A stretch of 64,000 bases of DNA from Protonemura montana (taxonomy: Eukaryota; Arthropoda; Insecta; Plecoptera; Nemouridae), in assembly GCA_947568835.1 (NCBI GenBank), contig OX387612.1, positions 7,812,001 to 7,876,000 of the forward strand. The letters run 5' to 3'. Made by a program: the position numbers and the translations under genes. Positions 13,048 through 39,335 of this stretch are shown here, in pieces. Numbering within the stretch: the first letter of the stretch is position 1; each line of letters begins with the position of its first letter. The notes under the pieces are model-generated. The model saw nothing but the letters and a program-made list of their open reading frames with translations. It made no database searches and was not told the origin of the DNA.

Positions 13048-16000
13048 TCAAGTTTTGAGTGTGGCAATCCGTTCCTCCTGCTTGGGCTGTGCCCTATCAT
13101 TGAGCAGGAGATATCGGCCCAGCCAGAGAATCGGGTCGATCGGCTTCACCTTGCAGACCTCGGCCAGTGCAACAAGCAGCTCGCTGCGCAGCCGTTCGTG
13201 GAAGTAATCGTTCGCTCTATCGTCGATCCACAGCGGTTCTAGCACCACTGCAGCGGAGAATACGTTTTAAAAATGGGGATGGTGATGTAGTGGTCAATGC
13301 TCGCGGGTGTACGCAGTCCACCCAGTGATGTAGTGGTCAATGCACGCAGGTGTACGCAGTCCACCCAGTGATGTAGTGGTCAATGCATGCGGGTGAACGC
13401 AGTCCACCCAGTAATGAATGGACAATGCTGATCATTCTCTATTTTTTTATAACCTAATCATACCCTCTACTTCTAACGCCCTCCCTATCACCATTTCACG
13501 GTTAATAGTTTTTCTTAAAACTAGTGCTAAGGATAAATCAAGTAGACATGAGTCTAAAAACCATCATAAGGAATTCACACCTTACTCTAGTTGAAATGGC
13601 CGGTAAGAATATATGTTCTTCTACCAAGAATGTCAATAATTTCAATAATACAATCTTATATTAATAACTCTTTTCATTGCAATGTAGTCAATTTTGTATT
13701 GTGTTGGAAACCTGGTGAGATTCTTCGATTTTGATTGTATTTATTTTGTTTGGCTGCTGACAAGTTATATGGTAATTGTATGGGCCTTAAAGAATATGTT
13801 TACATATAGAACTGTAGACAATGATAGAAAATATAATAATAATAATAGTGATTGAGATTATGATCAGTAGGTACCTCTTAAAAAAGTATTAGTTGGTCCT
13901 TCTCTGTGCTAGGGTTGTTAATAATAGTAGACTCAGTAGGTACTAATTTAGTAGTGGTAGTCTTAATAAGATAATAGTAAAGATAATAGGTAAAACCTTT
14001 TACTTACAGTAATATTAAAATAAAAATAATACATTTTTTATAGACATAATAAAAATAATAGTAATTATAATAATGCTAATGGTGCATCCCTTTTTTTTGT
14101 CTTCCTTCATATTTTTGGTGATTGTAGTTAGGAAATGGGAGGATATCTATATAATTACAGATAGTATAAATAGTATCAATAGTATAAATAGTATAAATAT
14201 AGATAGTATATCATATGTGATTCTATGTGGGATGGTCATGGAGGATAGGTATTCATCTGTATTGATAAGTTGATTGATGTTAGCCTAGCTTTATAAGCCC
14301 ATGTCCTATATTTCTATGTCCCTGTAGTCGATGTTTTATTAGAACTTCAAATTTTAAAGCCACTCTGACATACATTTGGTCGCAGTAGCTCTAATCGAAA
14401 AAATGGTGACTTTGAAACTAATGGTTCTAATAAAGCATAGACTACAAGAATCTGTTTTTACGTTCTTTATGGGTCACAATAAAAGGGCTGACCCTAGACG
14501 GTTCCGGGACAACGGAGGAATTCTCGAAAGATAATTTACATAAAAAAATAAAGATGTGTAGTTACTGTTAGGGAAAAAGAAGTGAATTTCAAACTCTGCC
14601 TTCTCCTCGTTAGCCGAAGCGTGGATCGCGTCCCTCAGGTTGTCCTGAACGTTCCCAAACTTGGCTCGCAGACACGCTGGAAACAACCTCCTGGCCTCCA
14701 AAACCTGAAGCCAATGAACAGAAAAGGCCATATTCATCATCAGCCGGTCATTCATCAACAGCCAATAGAGTAGTGGCTCAGCTAGTGTCTCAGGGACAGC
14801 GCCAACACAGTGTGTCAAAGGGACAAGGCTAAGCGGTGGCCGGTCCTTGGTGATGTTGGACAGGAGCAGCCAACACAGTGTGTCAAAAGGACAAGACTAA
14901 GCGGTGGCCGGTCCTTGGTGCTGTTGGACAGGAGCAGCCAACACAGTGTGTCAAAGGGACAAGACTAAGCGATGGCCGATCCTTGGTGCTGGTGGACAGG
15001 AGCAGCCAACACAGTGTGTCAAAGGGACAAGGCTAAGCAGTGGCCGGTCCTTGGTGCTGTTAGACAGGAGCAGCCAACACAGAGTGTCAAAGAGACAAGG
15101 CTAAGCGGTGGCCGGTCCTTGGTGCTGTTGGACAGAAGCAGCCAACACAGTGTGTCAAAGGGACAAGGCTAAGCGGTGGCTGGTCCTTGGTGCTGTTGGA
15201 CAGGAGCAGCCAACACAGTGTATCAAAGGGACAAGGCTAAAACGGAGCAGACTGTGTGCCGGCACCGAGTTCATTCTAAGCTCCACTATGTTAACTTCGT
15301 CTTGAGTTCCTCACTAATGGTAATTGGTTCGTACATCGTTGGGTCCGACGAGTCGGTTCAACGCGTTGATGCAGTCTATCTTGGCCACGCAGACTGCAAG
15401 GACGGGCCCCCTCGAGGTTAGAGCCACCTGCCGAGGGAACCAGGCTTCGCCGTAGTTCTCGGCGAAGAACTCGCTGGCCTGTTCAGGGCTCAACAACACG
15501 TGGCGTTTCTGTGAAAAAAAAAGTGTATTCGTTTTAATTAATGACGCATTGTTTTGACAACAGGTCATGTGGCACTGATCTAACGGCTCGGTGAATGGTT
15601 GGATGATGATGAGGATGATGATGAACCGAACCCAGCATAGAAAGGAGGAGGGGAAACCCAGTGGTGGCACGTAGCCTACACCTGTCGAAGAGCACCAAGG
15701 GGACCACAGGCTTAAAGTCCCTTCCGAAGGACGTTACAATGTGAACAGCAGGATTCCTCCACAAATCCATGTCGTTAAGAGGTTGATAAGCAAGTTAAAA
15801 GTAGCATTTGCTTTCTGAGATATAATGAATAAATAGGCTCACAGCAGATTACCAGTTACTCTTTCTGAGAGAGTAACCTTTCCTGTAACTCCCATAACCG
15901 TAGATTTTTCGCTTTTTTAGTTATGTTTCGATCGCCCAGTAGGTACATTGAACCGTAATGGAAAGATACATGTCCTTTTTTTAATCACTTGTGCGAGTTG

Positions 16001-18309: not shown

Positions 18310-18795
18310 ATTATCGATTGATTTGTATTTTGACGCAGGGCCCAGTGTTGCTGGTCTCATGACGTCGTTAAATGAGTGGATGATGATGATGAACCTAACC
18401 CGACCTAGAAGAGATGAGGATAAACCCGGAGATAGCACGTAGCCTACTCCTGTCGAAGATCATCAAGAGTGCCACCGGCCAAACGTCCCTTCCGAAGGAC
18501 GGTACAACGCGAACAGCAGGATTCCTTCACAAATCCATGCCGTCGAGAGGTTGATAAGCAAGGCGAGTGCAGTTGCTGTACTTACTCTCATCCCTCCAAC
18601 CTCTCTCCCGAACAAAACTGGTCATGTGTATGATGGTCACCCATCCAATACCTGACCCAGCGCAGTGTTGCTTAACTCTCATCCCTCCAACCTCTCTCCC
18701 GAACAGAACTGGTCATGTGTATGATGGTCACCCATCTAGTACCTGACTCAGCGCAGTGTTGCCTAACTTCGGGTGATCTCATGCGAACCGTTTGG
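18310..18795 (-). repeat. 5S-derived SINE, nearly full-length, with duplicated head
   Basis: On the minus strand there are two successive 5S-like heads (each with GTTAGGCAACACTGCG or GTTAAGCAACACTGCG, and a GGATGGGTGACC-like segment), then the core and the tail ending ACAAATCAATCGATAATC. The doubled head looks like the first step towards the 91-bp arrays at 30771 and 57615. Confidence 0.9.
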
Positions 18796-19135
18796 GGTTG
18801 TTTGGAAAATCCGCAGGTGGCCTTCGGCTCGTTATCAGGTTATTTGAATTACGATATCAGGAAAAAAAGGAAAGAATGTGGTCTTCTATGATCATTATGG
18901 ATACGATTTTTTTGAAAGCTCTTTAGGGGGGTAGGGGGGAGGAATGGATGGTGTAGCCCCCCTGGCGGGGTTGCCTCCTGAAAGGCGCAGAGGAAAATAT
19001 CCAATTAAAATAATTAAAAAACGTGGTTAAAAAAACTCTAGTCCGGTATCTAAAATATCAACAGTTGATTCAATTTGCGCTCTGAATGGTTGCGCTTAAA
19101 ACGGCTAAAAAGTTCTTACAAACCAAATTTTGCTC
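18796..19135. other. Spacer between SINE and satellite, nothing recognised
   Basis: Contains a G-rich tract near 18926-18950 (GGGGGGTAGGGGGGAGG) and otherwise unremarkable AT-rich DNA. Confidence 0.4.
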
Positions 19136-21358
19136 TGTCAGTTGTGTACAGTCCCATATGATAACCAAGTTTTAAGATCCTTGTGTGCTATGCTTGTGCT
19201 TATTGCTATGTCAATTGTGTGCAGTCCCATACGATAACCAAGTTTTAAGATCTTGTGTGCTATGCTTGTGCTTATTGCTATGTCAGTTGTGTGCAGTCCC
19301 ATATGATAACCAAGTTTTAAGATCCTTGTGTGCTATGCTTGTGCTTATTGCCATGTCAATTGTGTGCAGTCCCATATGATAACCAAGTTTTAAGATCTTG
19401 TGTGCTATGCTTGTGCTTATTGCTATGTCAGTTGTGTGCAGTCCCATATGATAACCAAGTTTTAAGATCCTTGTGTGCTATGCTTGTGCTTATTGCCATG
19501 TCAATTGTGTGCAGTCCCATATGATAACCAAGTTTTAAGATCTTGTGTGCTATGCTTGTGCTTATTGCTATGTCAGTTGTGTGCAGTCCCATATGATAAC
19601 CAAGTTTTAAGATCCTTGTGTGCTATGCTTGTGCTTATTGCCATGTCAATTGTGTGCAGTCCCATATGATAACCAAGTTTTAAGATCCTTGTGTGCTATG
19701 CTTGTGCTTATTGCCATGTCAATTGTGTGCAGTCCCATATGATAACCAAGTTTTAAGATCTTGTGTGCTATGCTTGTGCTTATTGCTATGTCAGTTGTGT
19801 ACAGTCCCATATGATAACCAAGTTTTAAGATCTTGTGTGCTATGCTTGTGCTTATTGCTATGTCAATTGTGTGCAGTCCCATATGATAACCAAGTTTTAA
19901 GATCCTTGTGTGCTATGCTTGTGCTTATTGCCATGTCAATTGTGTGCAGTCCCATATGATAACCAAGTTTTAAGATCTTGTGTGCTATGCTTGTGCTTAT
20001 TGCTATGTCAGTTGTGTGCAGTCCCATATGATAACCAAGTTTTAAGATCTTGTGTGCTATGCTTGTGCTTATTGCTATGTCAGTTGTGTGCAGTCCCATA
20101 TGATAACCAAGTTTTAAGATCCTTGTGTGCTATGCTTGTGCTTATTGCTATGTCAATTGTGTGCAGTCCCATATGATAACCAAGTTTTAAGATCTTGTGT
20201 GCTATGCTTGTGCTTATTGCTATGTCAGTTGTGTGCAGTCCCATATGATAACCAAGTTTTAAGATCCTTGTGTGCTATGCTTGTGCTTATTGCTATGTCA
20301 ATTGTGTGCAGTCCCATATGATAACCAAGTTTTAAGATCCTTGTGTGCTATGCTTGTGCTTATTGCTATGTCAATTGTGTACAGTCCCATATGATAACCA
20401 AGTTTTGAGATCCTTGTGTGCTATGCTTGTGCTTATTGCTATGTCAATTGTGTGCAGTCCCATATGATAACCAAGTTTTAAGATCCTTGTGCGCTATGCT
20501 TGTGCTTATTGCTATGTCAATTGTGTGCAGTCCCATATGATAACCAAGTTTTAAGATCCTTGTGTGCTATGCTTGTGCTTATTGCTATGTCAGTTGTGTG
20601 CAGTCCCATATGATAACCAAGTTTTAAGATCCTTGTGTGCTATGCTTGTGCTTATTGCTATGTCAATTGTGTGCAGTCCCATATGATAACCAAGTTTTAA
20701 GATCCTTGTGTGCTATGCATGTGCTTATTGCTATGTCAGTTGTGTGCAGTCCCATATGATAACCAAGTTTTAAGATCCTTGTGTGCTATGCTTGTGCTTA
20801 TTGCTATGTCAGTTGTGTGCAGTCCCATATGATAACCAAGTTTTAAGATCCTTGTGCGCTATGCTTGTGCTTATTACTATGTCAATTGTGTGCAGTCCCA
20901 TATGATAGCCAAGTTGTAAGATCCTTGTGTGCTATGCATGTGCTCATTGCTATGTCAATTGTGTGCAGTCCCATATGATAGCCAAGTTGTAAGATCCTTG
21001 TGTGCTATGCTTGTGCTTATTGCTATGTCAATTGTGTGCAGTCCCATATGATAACCAAGTTTTAAGATCCTTGTGCGCTATGCTTGTGCTTATTGCTATG
21101 TCAATTGTGTGCAGTCCCATATGATAACCAAGTTTTAAGATCCTTGTGTGCTATGCTTGTGCTTATTGCTATGTCAATTGTGTGCAGTTCCATATGATAA
21201 CCAAGTTTTAAGATCCTTGTGTGCTATGCATGTGCTTATTGCTATGTCAGTTGTGTGCAGTCCCATATGATAACCAAGTTTTAAGATCCTTGTGTGCTAT
21301 GCTTGTGCTTATTGCTATGTCAGTTGTGTGCAGTCCCATATGATAACCAAATTTTAAG
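19136..21358 (+). repeat. 72/73-bp satellite, about 30 copies
   Basis: The unit contains GTGTGCAGTCCCATATGATA, ACCAAGTTTTAAGATC and TGTGCTATGCTTGTGCTTAT. Units of 72 bp (GATCTTGTG) and 73 bp (GATCCTTGTG) alternate in the left half, giving a 145-bp higher-order period. The right half is mostly 73-bp units, with more changes toward 20870-21010. Open frames across it are by-products. Confidence 0.97.
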
Positions 21359-22909
21359 ATTCTCTAATGATAACCAAGTTATTGAAAATCAAAACATGTT
21401 GCGCACTCAAAATCAATGATACCAATTAAAAGGCACGCACAGAAAAATCAAGGCGAATGTACCTAGAAACAAATTCACCGAGAAGATACCGAACCAAGGC
21501 TCTCTAGGTCCTTCATAAAAGACAGTTGAAAAAAATTCAAACTCTACTTTGAAGCTCTGCTTTGGTGGTTCTCAACATCAATCAATTTCGATTATTTCCA
21601 CACTTAATTTGAGAGTTGCCACGCGGTCCTTGACGACATTTCTATCCACAAAGTGCATTTATATCAATTCCCCCAAAAATTGACGACTCGCCGCTGGCAT
21701 ATCCTTTGATTTATTTCTTTTCCTTACATAGTTGGGATTGATGACTTTATAGTCTTAGACCTTGGCATAGAAGGACAACACTTTCTTGTCTGCGTTTCTT
21801 GGATTGACCATCAAACGTCGCGTTGAAAGATGAGCGTTTCAATTGGCATACTGACTCCTTTTAAAAAGTGTACCAGACATAATTAGGACACACAATACTT
21901 GGTGTGGTTATTTAAAAAATATATTTCTTTTCTGGGTTTTTGAATTATTGATCTTCTTTTTTTAGTTAGATGATTCGAAAGTATTTTTATTTTATTTTAT
22001 ATTTTTGAGATTATTTCGTTATCGGAGAAATTTTACAATTGTTAGAAGTTACGAAACGACAGAAAAATTATTGTTTTTTACCAAGCGTTCCAAAAAACAC
22101 AGTTTCAAATCGATTTTTTTTCACAAATTACACGCTTCTTCAAAACGCGATAAAAAAAAGTATACTGAGATCGACCTTTCATTGTTAATACCGTAAAAGC
22201 ACTTTAACATCTTAATACAACTCTTTAAATCTTTAAAATCTTTAAATTATTAAAATATCATAAAATGCTTAATATATTAGAGTATGAAAACTTAGCAGAT
22301 CTAAAGTTGCCTTAAGAGTATTTGCAAAGAACCCCCTCCCACCCTCCCTACACCACAACCCCCCCCCCCCCCCCATCGCCACGTCAAGCCTGATTATAAA
22401 CTTAGATTGACGCTAAGATATCACCAACGAAATGGTGGTGAAATGCAAGGCTCCATCTGCACATGCATCAAATACTAAAGGTCTCTTGCACCAGTCGTTG
22501 GATTGCCTGACCTATGGCATTGCCAGGTGCATTGTTTCTGTCGTTTTCATTTACGCCCAGTGAATTATTGATCATCGTGCACAATTGCAAGGAAAATGAG
22601 TTTTTCCGCACTTTTGAGGTGAAAATGCATTCATTTTATGCGCGCTCTTTATGAATTTCCCTGCGTCTTGTATGTGGCTTGGTGTAAACACAAGTAACAC
22701 ATGTTGGAAGTAACATTGCAACATTGAGGAAAGCATTACTCAGCGAACTCCTACATGCAACCCGCAAGACAAACTTGGCTCCTCCACTAACTCCTAGATG
22801 CAGCCCGCAGAGCAAACTCAAGGCGTAATCAAATTCCATTTGAATCATTTTTGCCTTTAGAGCTAGTGGAAACAAATGCTTGCAATGTGCTGTGATCACT
22901 GATATCAAA
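21359..22909. other. Intergenic stretch, no gene recognised
   Basis: AT-rich DNA with a run of C residues at about 22360-22374. No open frame here shows a recognisable domain, and no tandem or dispersed repeat was identified. Confidence 0.5.
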
Positions 22910-23315: not shown

Positions 23316-24029
23316 AAAAATTTAAGTCACGCAGTCCATTGCTGGCAACAGGTCGGATACCCTAAATCCGAGGTGTCCCTATGATTTAAAATCTAATTTT
23401 AGTGTTTTTGAAAAATAAACTACCAAAACCACGAAAACTACAGATGAAAACAACTTAAAATAGCACACGGTTTTTTTTGAGAGAACTTAAAGTCAGGGTC
23501 TCTCAAGATGGCGGTCTTTGCTTCAAGTCTCTCCGTGGCAACCGTTATCCGAGTTATTTGACATCAGCTGGCTGTAATACTGGATTTTCTCTCTTGAGGC
23601 AAACTTTAAACATAATTAAAATTATTGATAGAGAAACCTTGGAACATTGATCGGGCATCTTGGTATACCGCAATGTTGAAAATCAAACGTCGAGTTTTCA
23701 ATTATTAATTTATTTCGAATGTTTTATCAGGTAAAAGAGTAATTAAAATTATCTGCTTCTGGCAAGAAAAACTATCTCTTAATTGATAGCAGTTCGCTTG
23801 CGGGAAACTATATCAGCAAAATGTTTGCACTCATTTTAATTTCTTCTTAGATGATGCAAATATCAGTTACCTGGGTTCATTAAAATGCCATTGAATTTGC
23901 TACCAAGACGTTGAGTGCAATATCAATGTCGCAGAGCTTGATTTTCTTCGTCATTAGTCTAAATAAATTTCTCTGAAAGTTAGCCTTAAACATGGCTATC
24001 GATTGGTAGTAATTACTATGGTATTAAGT
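23316..24029. other. Intergenic stretch, no gene recognised
   Basis: Unremarkable AT-rich DNA apart from the single 41-bp satellite unit near 23554. Confidence 0.4.
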
Positions 24030-24790
24030 CCAAAAAACTCAGGTGAATTGAATTCAAGCTTTCAAGTGGCAATTAGGAGAGATGTTGTTTGATTCATGTT
24101 CATCTTGCAAGGTGCCAACATTTTAATTAGTCTTCCCTCGACCATGTAACCTATGTTCCCAATTTACGTACTTACCTACCTTCTCCTTTTCCTATCAGAA
24201 AACACCTGAAATCAAATTGTTAGGCAAAGAAAAATAACTGTCAACGAAGCCCAATCAACCAGTTCTGACAGCTTACATATTTCTGAGGTAAAGATTAATT
24301 TTTTTCAAATGCGTGAAACCATTGATAGAAATTGATTCACCTGAGCTTTTGTGGAACACGTTGTGAAATATAATTTAAATTTCAAGTGCTTGCAATGAGC
24401 ACAGCTTTAATAAATTAGGTTTACGCTTTTCGACAATATAAATTAAATATGTGTTCTATCTGCGGGCACTGTTTGCTGCTTTTAATTATTTAAGTTTTCA
24501 AGTGGCAATTAGAAGGGTCTTTGTCCGATTCGCGTTCATATTATCAGGTGCCAACATTTCAACCCGTCTCGACTCGTTTACCCATTCCCATCGGGTAAAC
24601 ACGATAAATAGAACTGCAGTGAAATGCAAACGCACTCTTATCAACCAATTGAAACTTGATCAATTGAAAATTGATTAACTTGGGTATATGGGATACACTA
24701 TACAAAGTGTACAGTGCTAAATTTATTTTAAATTGCAAATGCTTGCAATGGGCAAAGTATTAACAATTAGGTCTACGCTTTTCGGCAACA
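24030..24790. repeat. Diverged tandem duplication of a dispersed element
   Basis: TTTCAAGTGGCAATTAG is followed by CATATT/CATCTT, then AGGTGCCAACATTT, at about 24058 and again at 24496. A second shared block (GCTTGCAATG, AATTAGGT.TACGCTTTTCG) follows each. A related stretch with TGAAATGCAA and ATCATTTCTGACA lies at 46290-46490. Confidence 0.6.
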
Positions 24791-25394
24791 CCAATTATAT
24801 AAATTATATTTACGATTACCTTGTGTTGCTTTTCAATTTTGACAGTTAAACATGCAAGAAGAATATAACACCGCCTCGTTAGTACTTATCACCGCCTTGT
24901 GCGTTAAAATTAGGATTTGATTAGTACCAATCTTGGCTCCTAGGTAGTGCCGACCATTGACCGAGAAGACATGTAAATATATATTTATAACTTAATTTGG
25001 AACCTACAGGGAGCGTTTCGTTTTAGGGGTTGGGATAGGGAGCGCATTCTGCTTTGCGTGGACCGAATCAAAAGGAATCTAGGCTCCTTAGTCGAGTGGA
25101 GATAGGGCAAGTGGGCAATTTTGTAACCCTCTTGGCCGGATCCACGAAGCAGTGTTTAAGCTTAACTCTCATAAATTTGAGGGTTATGTTGTTATCACCA
25201 TGGTAACCACCTCTTAATTCTGGGAACACCGTTTTTGATTGGCTGATCAACTGTTCAGCTTCAAGATTGAACTGAAACTCTGCCGGCCCCAGGTTTGCAA
25301 GATCGAGTAAAGAGAACTACAGGAATTATTTTCTTGCAAAAGAAGGACAGATATTGAGTGATGTCCGATTTATATTATTAAGAAAACTAATAAC

Positions 25395-25610
25395 TTCCCA
25401 AAGGTTAGTGCCCGAATGGGGACTCAAACCCCGGTCGCCAGCTGTCGAGAGTGATGCTCGAACTAATGAAGACGTTATTGAGAGTGTTTAGTGCATTTGA
25501 TCAGAAAAGGGGTTGAGTTCCCCGATTGTACACATATTTTGAGAGGTTATTCGTGTTCTTAATAATATTCGAATTGTAAGCATTGCAATTTAAATAAAAT
25601 TGCACCGCAA
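25395..25610. repeat. Degenerate tRNA-derived SINE pieces
   Basis: A minus-strand B-box-like part (GGGGACTCAAACCCCGG) is followed by a plus-strand piece (GGGGTTGAGTTCCCCGAT) and the body and tail ending GCATTGCAATTTAAAT. Two decayed copies appear joined in opposite orientations. Confidence 0.55.
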
Positions 25611-26089
25611 GTTTAATTGATTTTTTGTGTTTACTGGCACACCGCTTAAGTCAGGGAAAGAGAGAAAACCTGGTACCGGCGCAAAATAAAAATAAACATA
25701 ATTAGTTTTCTTATTTATTTGTTTAATTAAAAATTGTACGTGTAATAGAACTGGTACCAGGTGCATCAGTACATGTTAAAAAATTTCTAACAACACAAGA
25801 AAAATAATTTTGAATTCGAAGAAAAAATTTTAATTTTGCCAACTTACCAGAGATAAAACAAACAGATTCGTGGAAACTCACCTCCAATTTGATTGCCAGT
25901 TGACCTGGAAAAACAAAAAACCATCGCCGTCGATCAAAAATCGTGGACCGTGAAATCGCGAGAGTCAAAGCGGCAGTCTCTTCAAGACGCCAACACGCAC
26001 GCGCCCTAACGACTTTAAAAACAAATCACAGCACGGCGCTGACTTTCAGTAACTCACAGGACCGTGACTAGTTCAGAGGTTGCAGTGAA

Positions 26090-28253
26090 ATGTCTTCTGT
26101 TTTTCGTTCGCTCGCCGCTCTAGTTGGTTTTGTTTTAACATCGTCTTTGGCACAGCGTGGAGGTCTTGTGCTTGGCATGGATGCAGATGTGGACAGTAAT
26201 GCGACAGGTGTGGGCGTAGTCAAACTTTTGGCGTCTGACGGTGTTTCTGAAGGTAGCGTTAGTAGTTTCGGGGATTATGTTGAATTAGTTGGTGATTTCA
26301 ATGTTCAAGATACAAATCTAGAGAATATGACATTTTATGACAGTTCAGATACTTTTGCTGAGACCGTCTCGGCAAGTGAGATTGTTCGAAATAGTGAGAT
26401 TTATAGCACGTCAGAAAGCGATAGAAACTACGTCAAAGAGACTACCAGGAATTTTACTGAAATAAGTGAAAATGAGCAATTAGTCAGTGTTGACGCAAGC
26501 GTCGACAAAGCCGGTGAGAAAAGCGGAAAAGTTTTGAGTAATTCGGACAACTTCACAAGTGGTAATCAACTGAAAAATGGATTCGAAGAAAATCCAAATG
26601 TTTTTTTTGGAAGCTTAGAAAACTCACCAACGACGCCAAGTTACACCGAGGAAAATTTCACGAGAAGTAAAGCTCCTCTGCGTTTTCAAAAGTCATTCGA
26701 AATTGCCGACGAAGTGCCGAATTCCACAGAAGAAACGCTTCATTATTTTCATTCGACACGAAACGACTCCATCGAAAGGTCAACGCCAACAGAAGAACTT
26801 TCATCAGCCCCAACAACCAACGAAGAAGCCCAAGACAACCCCTGCTCGAAATCAGCAAATCCTTTAGTTAAACAAAGTACACCCAACAACCCTTGTCACT
26901 GCACAACCACTCTGACTCAAGAACGGAACGAGTCCATGATCCTTGAGGACTTCCGCATGCAGTGGCCGGTGGACGAGTGGCTCTCGCAAGGCTTCTTCAC
27001 TGAAGAGTACCTCTTGAAGATCCCCGTCCATTGGCTGTCGTTTCCCCCACCTGCTCCGGAGGCTCACTACCTTTTGGCAGTGGCGTATGTGGTAATCATG
27101 TTGGTTGGAACAGGTGGGAACTTGCTGGTGATCTTTATGTTTTGCAGGTAAGGTTTTGGAGATTTTTGACAAGATATTTCGTTTGCACTAACGGTTTGAC
27201 TGTCGTGAAATCAATGTCATGAAATTTTATGGAATGACATGACTTTTATGCAATGAATAAATTATGTTTTACATATTATTTATGTATACATACCTAGTAT
27301 ATTTTCCTTCATGAAGTTCACCAACTGTATAAATTATTTAATATTTGCAATTTGTTATTGGTTTTCAAGAACTTTGATAAACTTTGTTCAACAAGAGAAC
27401 ATACTTTTCCGATAGAGGCGCCACCGGTCGTTTTCGGGTGACATGCTGGCCAACTGTCATTTTTTTGAATACTAAAAATCATTTTTGCTGATTTCCGCCA
27501 GTTTCCTTATGCCTAAAACTGTTGTCGTGCCAAGATCTTTTCTTTTTAAATTCTGTGGCTAAATTCAAACAATTTAACCATCTTGGCAAATATTTTGCAG
27601 GTATAATAAATACTTTGAAATCCTCCCAGTAAAAACATTAACTGACGTTTCATTCTTGAGTTGGTAGAAATGCTGGCACCTCTGTCTTTGGGCTGGCATC
27701 TTTCTCACAGGCTAGACTGTATGTGTCCAAATTTGGATTTATTGCTACTAATTTTCAATGCAAACCATGCTCAGATGTTTTCGAGTTTAAAAAAAAATTG
27801 TTTATTTCCCGGTTCAGACCCACTTATATTTGTCTTCTTGGAATTTTTACAGATGCAAATCTTTGAAAACTCCCGCCAACATTCTGGTGATGAATCTGGC
27901 TTTCAGTGACATGATGATGCTGTTGAAGATGCCGATTTTCATCTACAACAGCTTTTACCTGGGACCGGCAATGGGTGAAATAGGTCAGTAACACACTGAT
28001 TAGGACAGCAAATTCGTTTACAGCACCTTTTTTTTGTGTGGAACTACGATACACGAAAAAAGTCTGGTTCCACGCAAGAAAGTGTGTCCAGCAGGTACTG
28101 GATTATTTTAGCCGCACGGCACCTCCATCTTGGCGAGTAAAGAAATAGGAATTAAATCAAAACTTAACACATTGCTTTGGTTAACGTGCTGTATTTTTTG
28201 AACGAAACTTAGTATTAAAACGTATTTTTTTCGCTGTTTCTTTAGATGATTAA

Positions 28254-28285
<32 letters not shown>

Positions 28286-31200
28286 TAGCAGTTTAATGGC
28301 TTAGGTGTAAGATGTCAAAAAATGTATCTGCGCTTTTCTTATGGGCTGAATTGTTTCGATGCATACCAAAACTGACAAAAAAATCGAACGGTTTGGCATG
28401 TTGGAAACACCGGTACTCGTGAGATCAACGAAGTTAAGCAACACTACGCTGGGTCAGGTATTGGATGGGTGACCATCATACACATGACCAGTTCTGTTCG
28501 GGATGAAATTTAGTACAGCAACTTCACTCGCCTTGCTCGACAGCATGGATTTGTGGAGGAATCCTGTTGTTCGCGTTGTACCGTCCTTCGGAAGGGACGT
28601 TAAGCCGGTGGTCCCCTTGGTGCTCTTCGACAGGAGTAGGCTACGTGCCTACACTGGGTTTCCCCTCCTCCCTTTTAGACTAGGTTAGGTTCATCATCAT
28701 CCTCATCATCATCCACTCATTCACCGACGTCATTAGACCAGTGCCGCAGGGCCAGATGTCAAAACAGTGCGTCGTTAAACACCACAAATCAATGAAACTG
28801 AAAAAGAAAATAAGCGTGAATCATTTTTCCTCGGGGTTCTGGCGACATAAATAGCTTTTAAATAACCTGTCAAACACACAAAAGTAAACTTTATTAAGGG
28901 TTAATAACTCTTTAAGAGTCACATTAAGATGGGCCATTAAATATTTTGTTTACAATGAAACATCCCCTTTAAGAAAGTATCTAACAATTGCCTTATTTAT
29001 GCCCAACTGGACCTGGTGTAATGCACTCAAACATGGTGCATACGGCTAATTACTTGCACTTGAAATCTAATTAAAGCTGGCCGTCTAAATCTAGTTACCT
29101 GTCACAGATTGCAGTTTCTTCCCCGAGACAAAACGATCCCAACAAGACTCCAAACAGAACTCCATGCACTTCCCCGAGAAGATACAATTAATTTTGACTG
29201 ACATTTCGTCTAATTAGCATTCAATTGCGGCTTCTAATTAATTAAGTGGACAGTCTTGTCTGCCGTTGGCATTCATTGACTTGGCTTTTGACCTTGAGAC
29301 AGAACCGCGGAGGGATTTCCAGTGGCGGATCGTCAATATTATTTTGTGGCGGTCATCGTCAAGCTTTAGGTCGAAAGTATTCGGTGTGTATAGGCGTTTT
29401 GGTCAAAGTCTACGCACCGATTTAAATGTAGGTATAGTTTAAAAAAAAATTACATATTGACTATTATACCGATGATTACGATTAACGTCACTGTTAATAA
29501 GAAGGTTAATTTCGTTATTTTGAGAGACTGGGAATGACGGTTAAACAATCTTAATTTATTTTAACTTTTCTCGCTTGCAGTTCATTTGCAGACCACAAGT
29601 GTTGTGAGTGATAGCAGTGATCTGAGTGATGTCAGAAATCGACAGTTAAATTTTGACCCGCTTTGCTGGCACTAAGGTATAGACTCGACATCTTGGTTCA
29701 AATTCAGAACTAACATCAAATAAATTACAAAGATGAGCATTCCATGAAATGGCTAAAAATGCTTAACAGTATGATGGTTTTTAGACTCATGTCTACTTGA
29801 TTTATCCTTAGCACTAGTTTTAAGAAAAACTATTTGAAATGGGTTTTGAATGCTAAGTAAAGGGCTACTAAATTTACCAACGTTTCGTAACATATTCTAG
29901 CTACTTCTTCAAGGGTAAGAGGGTAAGAGCAGTCTCTTACCTTTGAAGAAGTAACTAGTATATGTTACGGAACGTCGGGAAATTTAGTAGCCCTTTACTT
30001 AGCATTCAAAACCCATTTCAAATAGTTTTTCTTAATGCTAAACAGTCTCTGCGAAAATCTTCTCTGCAAACTGTACACTAATATACAGTTTGTACGATGA
30101 CCCAAGATATTTATTGAAGATGATGCTAGTGATGTTTTGTTAGTGATGCAACTAACTATAATTTAACTTTCTCCTTACTCTAAAAAACAACTGACTTTCT
30201 CCGTATGCGATTGATTGTTGCCATCGCAATTGATTTCTTGTAGTTAAGAAAATTGTAATACTAGGTCCAACTAACGGTAAACCATACCTTCAATCCAGGT
30301 TGTCAAATCTACGGTTTCATCGGTGGTCTAACGGGTACCGTCTCCATCGCAACCCTGGCAGCGATCGGACTCGACCGCTACTATGTCATCGTTCATCCAC
30401 TAGACCCACTGCGCAAGACGACCCGGCTGCGCGCTAGACTCTGCGTCGCTTTTGTCTGGCTCTACGGCTTCACTTTCGCCGTGCTTCCGCTCACTGAGCT
30501 GGAATTCTCTCGCTACGTTCCCGAAGGCTACCTGACTTCGTGTAGTTTCGACTATCTGAATCCGAGCCTGCGGTCGCGTTCGTTCATCCTACTGTTTTTC
30601 ACGGCCGCTTGGGTGGTGCCGTTCATTGTGCTCACCTTTTCTTACCTGGCCATCTGCCACGTGGTCGTTCAGGCGAGAGAGGTGCCGCCTGGCGGCGATT
30701 CGTCGCGACACTGCCGGGAAAACGACAAGCGACGAACGGAGCTCAGGTTAGTGGGATGTGCTGGATTTAAAGTTAATCAACACTGCGCTGGGTCAGGTAT
30801 TGGATGGGTGACCATCATACACATGACTAGTTCTGTTCGGGAGAGAGGTTGGAGGGATGAAAGTTTAACAACACTGCGCTGGGTCAGGTATTGGATGGGT
30901 GACCATCATACACATGACCAGTTCTGTTCGGAAGAGAGGTTGGAGGGATGAAAGTTAAGCAACACTGCGCTGGGTCAGGTATTGGATGGGTGACCATCAT
31001 ACACATGATTAGTTCGGTTCGGGAGAGAGGTTGGAGAGATGAAAGTTAAGCAACACTGAGCTGAGTCAGGTATTGGATGGGTGACCATCATACACATGAC
31101 TAGTTCTGTTCGGGAGAGAGGTTAGAGGGATGGAGGTTAAGCAACACTGCGCTGGGTCAGGTATTGGATGGGTGACCATCATATACATGACCAGTTCTGT

Positions 31201-34157
31201 TCGGGAGAGAGGTTGGAAGGATGAAAGTTAAGCAACACTGAGCTGAGTCAGGTATTGGATGGGTGACCACCATATTGATGACCAGTTCTGTTCGCGAGAG
31301 GTTGGAGGGATGAAAGTTAAGAAACACTGCGCTGGGTCAGGTATTGGATGGGTGACAATCTTACACATGACCAGTCTGTTCGGGAGAGAGGTTGGAGGGA
31401 TGAAAGTTCAGCAACACTGCGCTGAGTCAGGTATTGGATGGGTGACCACCATACTCATGACCAGTTCTGTTCGGGAGAGAGGTTGGAGAGATGAAAGTTA
31501 AGCAACACTGAGCTGAGTCAGGTATTGAATGGGTGACCATCATACACATGACCAGTTCTGTTAGGGAGAGAGGTTGGAGGGATGAAAGTTCAGCAACACT
31601 GCGCTGAGTCAGGTATTGGATGGGTGACCATCATACACATGACCAGTTCTGTTCAGCAGAGAGGTTGGAGGGATGAAAGTTAAGCAACACTGCGCTGGGT
31701 CAGGTATTGGATGGGTGACCATCATATACATGACCAGTTCTGTTCGGGAGAGAGGTTGGAAGGATGAAAGTTAAGAAACACTGCGCTGGGTCAGGTATTG
31801 GATGGGTGACAATCTTACACATGACCAGTCTGTTCGGGAGAGAGGTTGGAGGGATGAAAGTTCAGCAACACTGCGCTGAGTCAGGTATTGGATGGGTGAC
31901 CACCATACTCATGACCAGTTCTGTTCGGGAGAGAGGTTGGAGAGATGAAAGTTAAGCAACACTGAGCTGAGTCAGGTATTGAATGGGTGACCATCATACA
32001 CATGACCAGTTCTGTTAGGGAGAGAGGTTAGAGGGATGAAAGTTAAGCAACACTGAGCTGAGTCAGGTATTGGATGGGTGACCATCATACACATGACCAG
32101 TTCTGTTTGGGAGAGAGGTTGGAGGGATGAAAGTTAAGCAACACTGAGCTGAGTCAGGTATTGGATGGGTGACCACCAAACGGTTCACCCTTTACTCTTT
32201 ATAAGCCTAGGTTTGATTATACCATCGTCACCATTTGGTCGGTGCCATTCTAAGCTTCGCCCTTTCCTCCATGCAGACTCGCCGAAGTGGTTCTCGGCGT
32301 GGTGGGCCTCTGGTTCATCAGCTGGACACCGTACGCCGTGGTGGCGCTGCTGGGAGTAAGCGGCAACCAACAGCTGTTGACGCCACTGGGCAGCATGGTG
32401 CCCGCGCTGCTAGCCAAGATGGCGTCTGCCGCCGACCCGTATGTGTACGCCGTCAATCATCCCAGGTTTCGTCTGGAGCTGGTCAAGAGCTGGCATCGAA
32501 TCAAAGGGCGACCGCAGTTCCGCGCCTCGCAGGTGGGGACAATTAACTCAACTTGCAACCAAATGCAATAAATAAAATTAATAAACTTACTTACAAAAAA
32601 AGGTTTCGAATGCCAAATGAGGTTATATTGTTTCGAGTTTTCCCGACATATCAAAACATGCACAAAAATGTAAATGACTGTTAGGTTAGTGAAAGACCGT
32701 TAGTGTAAGTGACAGATTGCCCCATAAGCATTGCTACCATTCCCATGGAATTAAATGTCAGTTATGATTTCTGTACAGGGATTGCAAAATACTTATATAT
32801 TTGAAAATAATTGCCAAGCTTGGAAAAATAAAACATCTTGGCACGACCAAAGCTTGAGAGCGAAAAGGAGCACATCGGCGGAGATGATTTGTTGTATTAC
32901 AAAGAAAGTTACTGCTGGCTAGCATTTCAACGATCAGTGGCGCCTCTACCAGGATGTGTTCTTTCGTTGAAACAGTTTCTTTATCATAGATGAAAGCTCG
33001 ACATCTTGTAACAAAAGAACCAACAACCACCTTGCCTAGGCTTTCTTGTGTATCTGGCTTAAAACCAGAATCAATAAAACTTCAAATGTCTGATTTTCAA
33101 CTCGTTTCCCAATTGTGCAAGACCTTGAATCAGCAATAAAAATTAAAAATAAATAAAATTACAGAGTGGTACTTTGGGGCTTTGCAGAGACGTACTTTTT
33201 TTTTTGTAATTTTTATTGTGGAAATCTTAAGATTTATCGTTGAATTGATCGCATTAAAGCATCGCATTGATCGCATCACTGCACTCACAGCAGCCTTTAG
33301 CGCAGTGTGAGGATATCTTTTTGAAAAAGCTCTCCAAAGCGGATAGTACCTTTTTTTTTGTTTTCAAAATTGACAATATAAAAAAAAATATATATTTAGC
33401 ATAGCACAAAGACGCATAGGAGCAAAGATGGAGGTTCAATGGTAGATTCAACGTTTGGTAGCCATGGAGATGCTGAGATCGCCTGACAGAGCTTCTAAAT
33501 TCTGCTATCTTATGTTACCACGGGCATATCATGACCTAGCATAGGAGGTTCAATGGTAGATTCAACGTTTGGTAGCCATGGAGATGCTGAGATCACCTGA
33601 CAGAGCTTCTCAATTTTGCTATCTTATGTTACCACGGGTATATCATGGCCTAGCATAGGAGGTTCAATGGTAGATTCAACGTTTGGTAGCCGTTTGGCTG
33701 GACGACGTTTGGCTGAGATCGCCTGACAGAGCTTCTTAATTCTATCTAACTCATGGGCTGGACAGTACTTCAAACGATGATAGGAAAACAATAGTTCCCA
33801 GATTGTAACTAATCAGTAATCGAGTGTGACCGTGAAATATTCCAGGGGCGCTCGGTGGCGGTGACCATGCACGAGCCAACTGAACAGAGCTCGCATTCAT
33901 CCGAGTCCGACGAGTTCCAACTGAACGTGCTCCAGCCCCAGGAACAGGAACCGGAAGCCGCTGGGAAGCCTGTCGACCTACCGACCGCTCGATGGAACGT
34001 TGGGTTACTCCCGCCTACCTGGTACCGGCCGCCGAAGCCGAAGAGAAACCGATCTACGAGTTTGCGGCTGAAGAGCAGGGTTAAGGATGTACACGACAAG
34101 GCCGTTTTTTATTCGTACTCGGAGCCGCGAACCGAAGAGAAGAACGACATGGATTAA
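26090..34157 (+). CDS. Rhabdomeric opsin with a very long N-terminal ectodomain
   Basis: Five exons join in phase: 26090-27147, 27853-27983, 30299-30746, 32277-32532 and 33846-34157 (734 residues). This is a light-sensing seven-helix G-protein-coupled receptor. Residues 1-21 look like a signal peptide. About 300 residues follow that are acidic and Ser/Thr-rich, with eight N-glycosylation sequons. TM1 is at about 326-350, then KSLKTPAN, the DRY motif at 422-424, the extracellular-loop-2 segment SCSFDYL typical of invertebrate opsins, and WFISWTPYA in TM6. The retinal-binding lysine is K593 in LLAKMASAADPYVY (NPxxY appears as DPYVY), then HPRFR. These features indicate a Gq-type visual opsin; the closest known group may be the Rh7-like opsins, which also have extended termini (inference). 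The introns carry a SINE, a foldback element and two tandem arrays. Confidence 0.92.
28385..28800 (+). repeat. 5S-derived SINE, full-length reference copy, opsin intron 2
   Basis: Runs from AACGGTTTGGCATGTTGGAA through a 5S rRNA-like head (ACACCGGTACTCGTGAGATC, GTTAAGCAACACTACGCTGG, TATTGGATGGGTGACCATC), the core (GGATTTGTGGAGGAATCCTG, CCTTCGGAAGGGACGTTAAG, GGTGGTCCCCTTGGTGCTC) and a TCATCATCCTCATCATC stretch, to the tail (CATTAGACCAGTGCCGCAGG, CACCACAAATCAATG). The head matches the A box, intermediate element and C box region of eukaryotic 5S rRNA genes, so this is a SINE3-type element. It has no protein-coding capacity. Confidence 0.92.
28801..29772. other. Opsin intron 2, non-repetitive part
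   Basis: No coding, RNA or repeat feature was recognised between the SINE and the foldback element. Confidence 0.4.
29773..30035. repeat. Foldback element, copy 2, opsin intron 2
   Basis: Inverted arms match copy 1, plus a left flank (GATGGTTTTTAGACTCATGT, CTTAGCACTAGTTTTAAG) that is the reverse complement of the right flank of the copy at 45317-45595. The centre contains diverged AAGGGTAAGAG repeats. Confidence 0.9.
30771..32182 (+). repeat. 91-bp tandem array of the 5S-like SINE head, about 15 copies, opsin intron 3
   Basis: Each unit reads GTTAAGCAACACTGCGCTGG, GTCAGGTATTGGATGGGTGA, CCATCATACACATGACCAGT, then TCTGTTCGGGAGAGAGG. It spans the 5S A-box, intermediate element and C-box equivalents. 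A block of about 454 bp (five units, including the GACAATCTTACACATGACC variant) is duplicated at 31320 and 31774. The array starts about 25 bases after the exon-3 donor. Confidence 0.95.
33428..33735 (+). repeat. 114-bp minisatellite, about 2.7 copies, opsin intron 4
   Basis: Units start GGAGGTTCAATGGTAGATTC and contain GCCTGACAGAGCTTCT and TATGTTACCACGGG. The last copy is interrupted by CGTTTGGCTGGACGACG. The reverse complement forms the array at 52210-52760. Confidence 0.93.
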
Positions 34158-34170
34158 TTGAGAGGATAAG

Positions 34171-34575
34171 GGTGTTGGAAACACCTTTTTATGTTAAGCA
34201 ACACTGCGCTGAGTCAGATAATGGATGGGTGACCGTCATACACATGACCAGTTCTGTTCGGGAGAGAGGTTGGAGGGATGAAAGTTAGTACAGCAACTTC
34301 ATTCGCCTCGCTTATCAACCTCTCGTCAGCATGGATTTGTGGAGGAATTCTGTTGTTCGAGTTGTACCGTCCTTCGGAAGGGACGCTAAGCCGGTGGTCT
34401 CCTTGGTCTTCGACAGGAGTAGGCTATAAGCCAGCACCGGGTTTCATTGCCTCCCGTCTAGGCTAAAAAAAGTTAATCGTGATCCCCATTAAATAATTCA
34501 CTGACGCCATTAGACGTCCAGTACCACAGGGACCCGTTGTCAAAAAAAAAAGTGCGTCATTAATCACCGCAGACT
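34171..34575 (+). repeat. 5S-derived SINE just after the opsin stop codon
   Basis: Starts with GTGTTGGAAACACC about 14 bases after the opsin TAA and lacks part of the 5S-like head (a jump from GAAACACC to GTTAAGCAACACTGCG). The core is intact with small deletions, and the tail (CATTAGACGTCCAGTACCAC) is decayed. It would lie in the opsin 3' untranslated region. Confidence 0.88.
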
Positions 34576-36091: not shown

Positions 36092-39000
36092 ATGAAGTAA
36101 GTTTGGCTCTCAAAAATTCAATTTTAAATCGCGAAAATCTCGACTCATCCCTCAGTAAAAGTAACTAATTTTTGTGAGAATCGCTTAAGTAAATTATGTT
36201 TTTTCTTACAGGATCGGTTTGTGCGCGTATAGCGGGTTCAAGATTTATCCTGGCCATGGCAAAACTTTGGTCAAGGCAGACGGCAAGGTATGGCGATATA
36301 TCCACATTACACGTTTTACATTATTTGGAGGTGGTTCGCAACTGCAGTTCTTCTGTTCTTTTAAAATATGTGCCCTAAATTTGGGGTGAACTGTCTGGTA
36401 CCATTCACGAAAATTTTAATCCAGATACCAAAAGAACCCATATCAACCTACAATGTTTTGAGGTTATTTTCATTGAGATCTGTTTCAAAACCGAGTTTTG
36501 TTTCGGAAACTGCATTTAGTGCACAAAACAGAGATACATTCGCAAGAGTAAATTAGAATAAAAACAATACGGATGAGTGGTCAGGTCTTGCTGTCATGAG
36601 TTTAGTTTTGACAACTGGTATGTCAATGGAATATGGAATAAGGATAGGTTGAGTGACAAACAAAGTGCTATAGAATACAGATTTGGTTAGTTGAAAGCCT
36701 AGGGCTATTGAGAGGTCTGATGCTTTGAAGAATTTAATTTTTGAGGGAATCGTTTGTATGCTGGAAAGAGTAAACCACTCCGCACACAGGTTCTGATTTC
36801 TAATATCCTGTAGTATGCGTGCTAGTAGTTCTTTGCAAATGGTCGCATGCTGAAAACTTCCTGCAGTATGTACACATGCCCAACTATTGGAAATTGAGAA
36901 TGTTCATGTCTCTTACTACTAGCGTAATTGCTAGTCTTTATAGCTTTTTATTGCTATAGTCGCAGCCTTATCTGTATTCTTCGCTAGTGTTAATGGAAGA
37001 AACAAAGCTTGCATCGAACTATTGTTAGCAAACATGGCGCACTGTTTGGTTCTAAATAGCGATCCCACACAATTGTGGCCATTTATTTCTTACACTGGTT
37101 ACACTGCAAATATCGCCACAATATAGTATTTTCTTTACTGCTAAAGTTAATCACTCCCAATGCAGAAGTCCTTAAAATACTCTACGTTTATACTACATGT
37201 GCACTTACTCTTAACAAGTTGGGCTATTCCAACTCGGCTCGGCGTTTGACTACTAGCTCTCTTACGTCGCAACAAAATACTCGTTGTTAGCACACTTTTT
37301 TAGCACTGGGCTTTTAACTAAGTAACTGGTTAGTAGAACCTTACGAGTAGTGGTTTTCTTCTACTAGTGCGCAGATTAGCGCACGGAAGAACTATTTTGC
37401 CGCAATACGTGTTGATTGTATTACGTTAGGCTTCTACCTAACCTTCTAGAGCTTCTTCTATGTACATGAACCTACTCACAACCTGCTTGTATCTTAAGTA
37501 GTTAGTAGATATCTCAATCATTTAAAAAAGAAAGTTACTCACCTCATATTGCACATGCAATTTCTTTCATTTACAGTCGCATACAAATATCAGTCGATGC
37601 TAATGGGTATTATTAATTCTTTGCAGTGTTATACCTTCCTGAACGCCAAATGCGAGTCATCTCACTTGATGAAGCGAAATCCTCGAAAGGTGACATGGAC
37701 TGTACTTTACCGACGTAAGCACAAGAAGGGTCAAGAAGAGGAGCAGACCAAGAAGCGCACCCGCAGGACACAAAAGTTCCAGCGAGCTATCGTTGGCGCC
37801 TCCTTGACAGACATCATGGCCAAGAGGAACATGAAGCCTGAGATCAGGAAAGCGCAACGGGAACAGGCCATCAAGTAAGTTTTCCGATACCTTGCGAGTT
37901 ATTTTCTATATCAGTTTCTTCTATCGGACTATCAAATGCCTTGAATTACTAAAATATCAAATGGTTGATATGGAAATTGTCTGAGTGACACAGAACATAG
38001 TGTAAAAAGTGAAATCTCTTTTTTTTTTAGTAATATTTGCATCTTTGACGTGAGGTAACCTTTTAGGTATTGATCTTTCAGGCTGTACCGGTTTGGTTAA
38101 ATAATCTGACAGTTAAGAATCTAATAGGGGTGTGGACTACAATGTGTGTTGAAGGGCTGAGGGCAGTTGTCGTGGATTACCAATGGTTAATTTTGTTACC
38201 GACCTGTTTGTTGGGCAATGCTAGAATGAGTAAACATGAGCATGAGTGACTATTCACTGCTATGAGCCTGCATCAGCTTTACAATTCCAATGTGTTAATA
38301 GAAGTTTAAATTTTCAGGGCGGCGAAAGAGGTGAAGAAGACCGCTAAGCCCTCGAAGAAGCCCGAGAAAACCGCGGCTAAGGTAACTATTTGAACCAATG
38401 AAAGGAAACGCCTTGTTCCGCACGTTGTGCTCCTCTGTTGAATTTCTATGCGAGCGTTGTTTAAGCTCCATGACATGCAACATGGGTTAGGGTAGAAATT
38501 TCGATCACTTGCTATTGCTTTACAATTGCTACTCGAAATCTATTTAGGAAAAGTGTTAGGTGAAAAACGTATCGGTATAATCCACTTGATGTCCAATTTG
38601 GGGGCCGGTTGAAACCCATGAATAACCATAGAATATGATACGATATCAAGCGGCAACGCACTAGACATTTTTAAGGAATCACTAGTTTGTTATCGAACCT
38701 ATGTTGACTCACTGGTTGCTTGTGACGAATATTTAACCATTGAAAATAAAAGGTTGCGCTAGGTTTTGGTACGTTGAATGTTCGTAATCGCGGTCATTTA
38801 AGTTGACTAGAGTAGCTAAAGTTACATAGACCAACTGTACCTAGACAAACCAAACTAAGTGCCATTTGAAAATGTCCTGTAGGTAGTGTAGTGAAATAAT
38901 TTTTTGATTTTAAAACTCCAGTGGCCCAATCCTCTACTCTTGACCACGGCTCAACTTTTTATTCAGGGTAAAGCAACGTACGTGCAGTGCTCATGTTTGG

Positions 39001-39335
39001 TGTACACAATATGCGCACTGCACGCCACTTTGTTCTGAATCAAAAGTTAAGCCGCTGTAACGTTTCGAGAATAGGTATCCTGAAGGGGCAAGTTTTGACT
39101 GAATTTGGGGAAATTTGTGAAGCAAATATCTTTGTAGACCAAATCAGAGATGCCTTGCTTCCGAATTCCTTGTTAGGAGCGGTCAGGAATACCAGCTATA
39201 ATTGACAGCATTGGGCTGCTATAGACAGTGAGCTAATTTTGGTTTTCTTTATTTCAGGCAAAGACCGCTCCAAAACAGAAGGCAGCCAAGATGCAACAAG
39301 CGAAGGCGGCACCAAGAGTTGGAGGAAAGCGCTAA
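36092..39335 (+). CDS. RpL24: 60S ribosomal protein L24 (eL24)
   Basis: Five exons join in phase: 36092-36096, 36212-36287, 37627-37874, 38318-38381 and 39258-39335 (156 residues, the usual length). The start ATG is followed after five coding bases by the first intron, a common layout for ribosomal protein genes. The protein opens [19 protein letters not shown], continues with the zinc-ribbon-like C...C pair, [26 protein letters not shown], and the helix [20 protein letters not shown], and ends in a lysine/alanine-rich tail. In the large ribosomal subunit eL24 forms an intersubunit bridge. No defect was seen. Confidence 0.97.

Follow-up and report, generated by a model that had tools for sequence, protein, structure and literature searches.

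A probable Rh7-type opsin gene of Protonemura montana with a long, probably signal-peptide-bearing N-terminal extension and a GC3 step inside its first exon

The window analysed here is a stretch of 64,000 nucleotides from the stonefly Protonemura montana (contig OX387612.1, positions 7,812,001 to 7,876,000 of the forward strand). It carries an opsin gene for which a five-exon model of 734 residues was built, with exons 2 to 5 placed downstream of exon 1 (Table 1). All four introns of the model are of the GT-AG type. According to approximate splice matrices, the donor of exon 1 (CAG/GTAAGG at 27147/27148) belongs to the top 0.05% of forward-strand GTs. Exon 5 is the least certain of the five, because its acceptor is the weakest in the model (score 0.95, top 9.6% of AGs). 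Despite this weak acceptor, the GC3 of 0.72 in codons 626-735 and a codon periodicity that was reached by none of 500 shuffles favour a coding exon. A second opsin gene was not evident in the 64-kb window by a coarse regular expression, which is blind also to the variant DPYVY of the present gene.

Table 1. Features of the opsin locus, in positions of the window.
Feature	Position	Strand	Remarks
Putative core promoter	26014..26079	+	TTTAAAAA, initiator TCAGT, DPE-like AGAGG; motif reading
Exon 1	26090..27147	+	Signal-peptide-like start (codons 1-21), extension (22 to ~278), opsin N-terminal segment, TM1
Predicted signal peptide, residues 1-21	26090..26152	+	Cleavage ~21/22; layout only
Low-GC3 extension, residues 22-278	26153..26923	+	Acidic; 7 of the 8 sequons
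High-GC3 part of exon 1, residues 279-352	26924..27147	+	HW.FPP segment, TM1
Exon 2	27853..27983	+	LKTPAN, TM2 with K378
Exon 3	30299..30746	+	TM3-TM5, C398, Y401, DRY 422-424, E472, C478, QAKK-free third cytoplasmic loop
Exon 4	32277..32532	+	TM6-TM7, K593, helix 8
Exon 5	33846..34157	+	C-terminal tail, stop TAA 34155-34157

Upstream of exon 1, an initiator of the arthropod type (TCAGT) begins at 26046 and has its A+1 at 26048; TTTAAAAA precedes this A by 34 bases, and a DPE-like AGAGG follows at +28. This putative promoter is a reading of patterns. The photoreceptor promoter motif RCSI (TAATYNRATTA) was not found on the + strand of 23500-34500 with three relaxed patterns. Its absence decides nothing, because the Rh7 gene is reported to lack the motif in 6 of 12 Drosophila species and to have an altered version of it in another (PMC5018682).

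The surroundings of the gene are rich in repeats. Intron 3 of the opsin is filled by a tandem array at 30769-32175, in which a 91-base unit is repeated 15.5 times; by eye, this unit resembles part of the 5S-like elements, and similar 91-base arrays occur at 18584-18768 and 57626-58078. Three full-length 5S rRNA matches exceed the Rfam threshold (28383-28503, 55050-55170, and 56319-56439); they are perhaps heads of a 5S-derived SINE, and the first of them is located inside opsin intron 2. Further long tandem arrays extend over 19130-21360 (30.7 copies of 73 bases) and 59190-60734 (22.8 copies of 68 bases). An RpL24 gene (~36092-39330, + strand) follows the opsin at a distance of about 2 kb; it was recognized by a PF01246 match in 37498-37875, its other exons being placed by eye. 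The second-longest open frame of the window, 49279-50319 (347 codons), contains degenerate repeats around DFFWP by eye, has a GC3 of 0.369 and no Pfam match, and perhaps encodes a fast-evolving protein. On the minus strand, an ORF at 14477-14896 overlaps a tandem array and matches nucleoside diphosphate kinase with 25.9 bits (cut-off 27), and a tRNA match was obtained at 48378-48450 (34.5 bits, threshold 29).

That the gene is a real opsin, as the sequence-only reading had assumed, was borne out by the core of the protein. Residues 343-603 match Pfam 7tm_1 (E 2.1e-51), and the best PDB match among those listed is jumping-spider Kumopsin1 (6i9k, E 1.1e-58, residues 304-622), which is thus the closest solved relative over this stretch among the matches listed; the five best PDB matches, taken from the best 60 of 395 matched sequences, are all Kumopsin1 and squid-type rhodopsin chains. 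Ahead of the aligned stretch, the 6i9k chain has no more than 27 residues. K593, the DRY motif, C398, C478, and E472 align with their counterparts in Kumopsin1 and squid rhodopsin, K593 falling on the A-K of both proteins in TM7. We take K593 to be the retinal-binding lysine, C398 and C478 the disulphide pair, and E472 the counterion. Judged by these matches, the core is an r-opsin, with a seven-transmembrane (7TM) domain of the rhodopsin family and the lysine in TM7. Scans with exon 3 gave 37 pattern matches in bacterial and archaeal contigs and three in viral contigs, none of which was confirmed as a relative.

Which kind of r-opsin this is can be judged by the hallmarks published for Rh7. 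In this group, the third cytoplasmic loop is devoid of QAKK, both tails are long, and DRY is present, as is the motif LRTPXN, whose L and N are described as necessary; three residues past the TM3 cysteine stands a tyrosine, which is also found in visible-light visual rhodopsins (PMC5018682). A lysine at TM2 position 90 is found in most, not all, Rh7 members (PMC5544684). In the P. montana protein, QAKK is absent throughout, whereas Kumopsin1 has it in the aligned third cytoplasmic loop. The first cytoplasmic loop reads LKTPAN, in which L and N are kept and R is replaced by K, and Y401 stands three residues past C398, a criterion that is unspecific to Rh7. K378 directly precedes M-P in TM2, and its equivalence to lysine 90 hinges on a one-residue gap against Kumopsin1. 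The tails of the gene model measure ~325 (N) and ~113 (C) residues, compared to 115 and 96 in Drosophila Rh7 (PMC5018682), whose long C-tail is also described elsewhere (PMC5544684), and the whole protein of 734 residues exceeds the 463-502 residues of three mosquito Rh7-like proteins (PMC5359912). By these hallmarks, the gene probably encodes an arthropod light-sensing opsin of the Rh7 type, and the non-visual role that the sequence-only reading had considered possible can be graded as probable from the sequence. Its passing remark that N-termini are somewhat longer in Rh7-like opsins proved central to the interpretation: because Drosophila Rh7 already possesses an N-tail of 115 residues, the long tail exaggerates a known Rh7 trait.

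The frame that encodes this tail is real coding DNA. An in-frame stop at 26069 makes the ATG at 26090 the first possible one in frame, and from there 353 codons are open in a single frame through TM1, forming part of the longest stop-free stretch in all six frames of the window. Within codons 1-300, no stop occurs in this frame vs. 14 and 25 in the other two, and none of 2000 dinucleotide shuffles was stop-free in any forward frame. The codon-position information of codons 22-300 amounts to 0.0375 bit, compared to 0.0051 (sd 0.0029) after shuffling; this value was reached by 0 of 500 shuffles and by 3 of 316 tiles of the window, those over exon 1 included. A chance ORF as the source of the extension was ruled out by these stop counts, shuffles, and periodicity. 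In steps of 60 codons, periodicity is strong in codons 1-180, with purines at 0.65-0.85 of first positions, and weaker in codons 181-300 (0.53-0.58), where the other frames contain few stops too. The exon 1 frame is coding at least to about codon 180 and most simply all along. Thus, the main observation of the sequence-only reading stands: one open frame in 26090-27147 leads from the ATG through a signal-peptide-like start, about 300 acidic residues, and eight sequons into TM1, and the frame break that it named as speaking against this arrangement is absent.

Residues 1-21 have the layout of a signal peptide, with R6, a hydrophobic stretch, and a plausible S-L-A/Q site at 21/22 by eye. The 11-mers that begin at residues 7 and 8 share a mean Kyte-Doolittle (KD) value of 2.21, the highest among all 11-mers starting at residues 1-310, and the next-best 11-mer outside the signal region (start at residue 38) reaches 1.67. 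A simple rule-based check selected the same hydrophobic stretch and placed the cut at 17/18 instead of 21/22. This rule passes 3 of the 74 ATG-initiated ORFs of at least 60 amino acids in the window, the exon 1 ORF included, and, when residues 2-60 are shuffled, 342 of 5000 permuted sequences (6.8%), which is why the signal peptide predicted by the sequence-only reading is considered likely rather than proven. Starts at Met30, Met80, Met283, and Met290 lack such a layout.

Behind the predicted cleavage site, the extension is acidic as claimed (43 D/E vs. 18 K/R in residues 22-278) and falls on the disordered side of the charge-hydropathy plot. The eight sequons are located at N37, 79, 121, 154, 189, 211, 225, and 280. 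As their total does not clearly exceed chance (8 vs. 5.1 expected by composition in residues 22-300, P = 0.106), it was dropped as stand-alone evidence; within the same residues, N-X-T sequons number 6 vs. 2.1 expected (P = 0.012) and N-X-S sequons 2 vs. 3.0 (P = 0.83). Two comparisons drawn by the sequence-only reading had to be abandoned. Firstly, the tail cannot be called mucin-like, with 23.7% Ser+Thr and 4.3% Pro in residues 22-278 and no direct DNA repeats of at least 14 bases in 26000-27200. Secondly, it resembles adhesion GPCRs in having a long ectodomain ahead of the 7TM domain, but differs from them in that it contains no GAIN/GPS or other domain (outside the 7TM domain no Pfam match up to E = 1, and no NCBIfam or PDB match in the extension) and in that the core is of the rhodopsin-family 7tm_1 type. 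Based on its composition, the sequons, and the lack of domains, the extension can fairly be described as an acidic, probably disordered, and probably glycosylated spacer. A structure prediction by AlphaFold2 for exon 1 alone, run without an alignment, is uninformative on the tail (mean pLDDT 34.2, with TM1 unfolded too). Searches of open-licence papers yielded no report of an opsin that combines an N-tail of more than 250 residues with a signal peptide.

A new feature of this locus is a GC3 step from 0.35 to 0.69 inside exon 1. Among 707 synonymous codons of the gene, the best single change point is at codons 278/279 (0.345 before, 0.692 after), with a likelihood ratio of 82.9 vs. a maximum of 19.6 in 500 permutations and a two-unit support interval of 263-281; exon 1 alone yields the identical change point (likelihood ratio 28.0). 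When the gene is split at codon 275, GC3 is lower on the upstream side for 16 of 16 amino acids compared. The GC3 of the extension equals the GC content of the local non-coding DNA (0.33-0.38 in five stretches), and within the window the RpL24 exon has a GC3 of 0.646 and the unmatched ORF 49279-50319 one of 0.369. Disorder alone fails to explain the low value, because the C-tail of the opsin also falls on the disordered side of the charge-hydropathy plot, yet keeps a GC3 of 0.72. The seam lies within one exon, approximately 50 residues ahead of TM1, and this position roughly matches the switch in Drosophila Rh7, which is reported to be highly variable upstream and conserved downstream of the exon start NYSNY; a start at that exon would give an N-tail of ~50 residues (PMC5018682). 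The step suggests a younger or less constrained addition ahead of an ordinary opsin start. We infer that the ancestral N-terminus began near the seam and that the upstream part is a lineage-variable addition, either young or merely unconstrained.

On balance, the whole is best explained by an Rh7-type arthropod r-opsin whose N-tail has grown to ~325 residues before TM1, and we regard this as probable. The tail appears to be an extreme form of one that is already long and variable in the Rh7 group. With Drosophila Rh7, the protein shares the 7TM r-opsin core with DRY, the retinal lysine, the TM2 lysine, and the absence of QAKK (PMC5018682, PMC5544684), as well as the C-to-Y spacing, the long tails, and, in the fly, an N-tail that is conserved in about its last 50 residues and variable upstream (PMC5018682). 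Besides the length of the N-tail, two differences stand out: the extension and the opsin start share one exon here, whereas the conserved part of fly Rh7 begins after an intron, and a signal-peptide-like start is present here, whereas the excerpted text of PMC5018682 names a signal peptide only within the description of a predictor.

A more specific origin, in which a new segment of secreted type (signal peptide plus ~257 residues) was added in frame before the old Rh7 start and the GC3 step marks the seam, is conceivable, but on present evidence we consider it unlikely. If true, this photoreceptor would possess a large glycosylated ectodomain that may bind matrix or a partner, or be shed, and the opsin may act as a combined sensor of light and contact. 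Alternatively, the main product might be a short opsin that starts at Met283 or Met290, with the upstream frame being residual or used by an alternative isoform. The GC3 step at 278/279 lies only a few codons before Met283, the resulting N-tail of ~45 residues would be like that of ordinary opsins, and upstream donor-like sites (24043, 24288, and 25404) could join to an acceptor inside exon 1; the authors of the Drosophila Rh7 study raised the same idea for their gene, but their qPCR reportedly detected the long form only (PMC5018682). Moreover, codons 1-180 bear a strong frame-specific coding signal, and the acceptor score of site 26922, beside the step, is only -0.93, compared to 0.95 for the weakest acceptor in the model. 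The bases at position -3 are T for Met283 and C for Met290, both poor contexts, compared to G for the ATG at 26090. For the downstream start near residue 280, which the sequence-only reading had named as something that would refute its claim, the position of the step thus speaks in one direction and the start contexts in the other, and we judge such a product distinctly unlikely.

It is also improbable that the gene is an r-opsin of another clade, such as a visual UV/blue-type opsin or an arthropsin, that gained long tails independently. The TM2 lysine is indeed common to insect UV opsins (PMC5544684), but the QAKK motif that is described as conserved in characterised visual insect opsins is missing (PMC5018682), and long tails at both ends, as found here, fit Rh7 rather than the six short-tailed visual rhodopsins of Drosophila.

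Least credence is given to an in-frame cryptic intron that is usually removed from exon 1 and leaves a tail of, for example, ~151, 207, or 253 residues, even the shortest of which exceeds the 115 of Drosophila Rh7. Four donor-like sites of exon 1 and, out of its 74 AGs, three acceptor-like sites are at least as strong as the weakest sites in the model, and together they form six in-frame pairs. Donors 26208, 26376, and 26514 are each in frame with acceptor 26730 (codon 214, score 1.25 vs. 0.95 for the weakest model acceptor). The resulting introns, 522, 354, and 216 bases long, would not touch the opsin core, so that a shorter form is possible, and coding periodicity fades past codon 180. However, these spans start in codons 40-142, where periodicity is strong, the three donors share a phase, so that one coincidence per acceptor suffices for the frame, the splice matrices are approximate, and the three further in-frame pairs, which use 27081, would remove the HW.FPP segment and cut TM1. 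The assertion that the arrangement is not a splicing artefact is therefore likely to hold, with no acceptor of model strength at the GC3 step, but it is weakened by the pairs of 26730 and by the closeness of the step to Met283.

If the favoured reading of an Rh7-type opsin with an extended N-tail is correct, the plain reason for the gain of a signal peptide would be the ~300-residue charged tail itself. TM1 alone translocates long charged tails poorly, and in the endothelin B receptor, a class A GPCR that is a peptide receptor rather than an opsin, a signal peptide was reportedly found, in a 2002 paper cited by PMC9599219, to be necessary for translocation of the N-tail. In P. montana, a cleavable signal peptide would take this acidic tail through the ER membrane and signal peptidase would cut near residue 21. 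The remaining ~300 residues would be N-glycosylated and mostly disordered and would form a hydrophilic spacer projecting from the photoreceptor membrane, which may affect trafficking, packing, or partner binding, but not photon capture. Roles of the tail other than spacing and the display of glycans are conjectural; earlier authors suggested that the tails of Rh7 serve protein-protein contacts (PMC5018682, PMC5537319). Retinal would be bound at K593 with E472 as counterion, and K378 may tune the pigment to UV or short wavelengths. K378 and E472 together suggest a chemistry like that of Drosophila Rh7. The fly pigment is bistable, couples to Gq, and covers the UV-to-visible range (PMC5544684); what it contributes to clock input is disputed (PMC6466219). 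Gq coupling as in the fly and a non-visual or accessory function in light sensing would be expected. The extension itself is probably lineage-specific, either recent or fast-drifting, and would precede an ancestral opsin start ~50 residues before TM1.

Rh7 is an ancient, widespread, and puzzling opsin whose roles in clock entrainment and eye function are disputed. The P. montana gene has an N-tail almost three times longer than that of Drosophila, a probable signal peptide for export, and a sharp compositional seam. These three features give it its interest and make it a case in which the mode and the reasons of ectodomain gain by an opsin can be tested.
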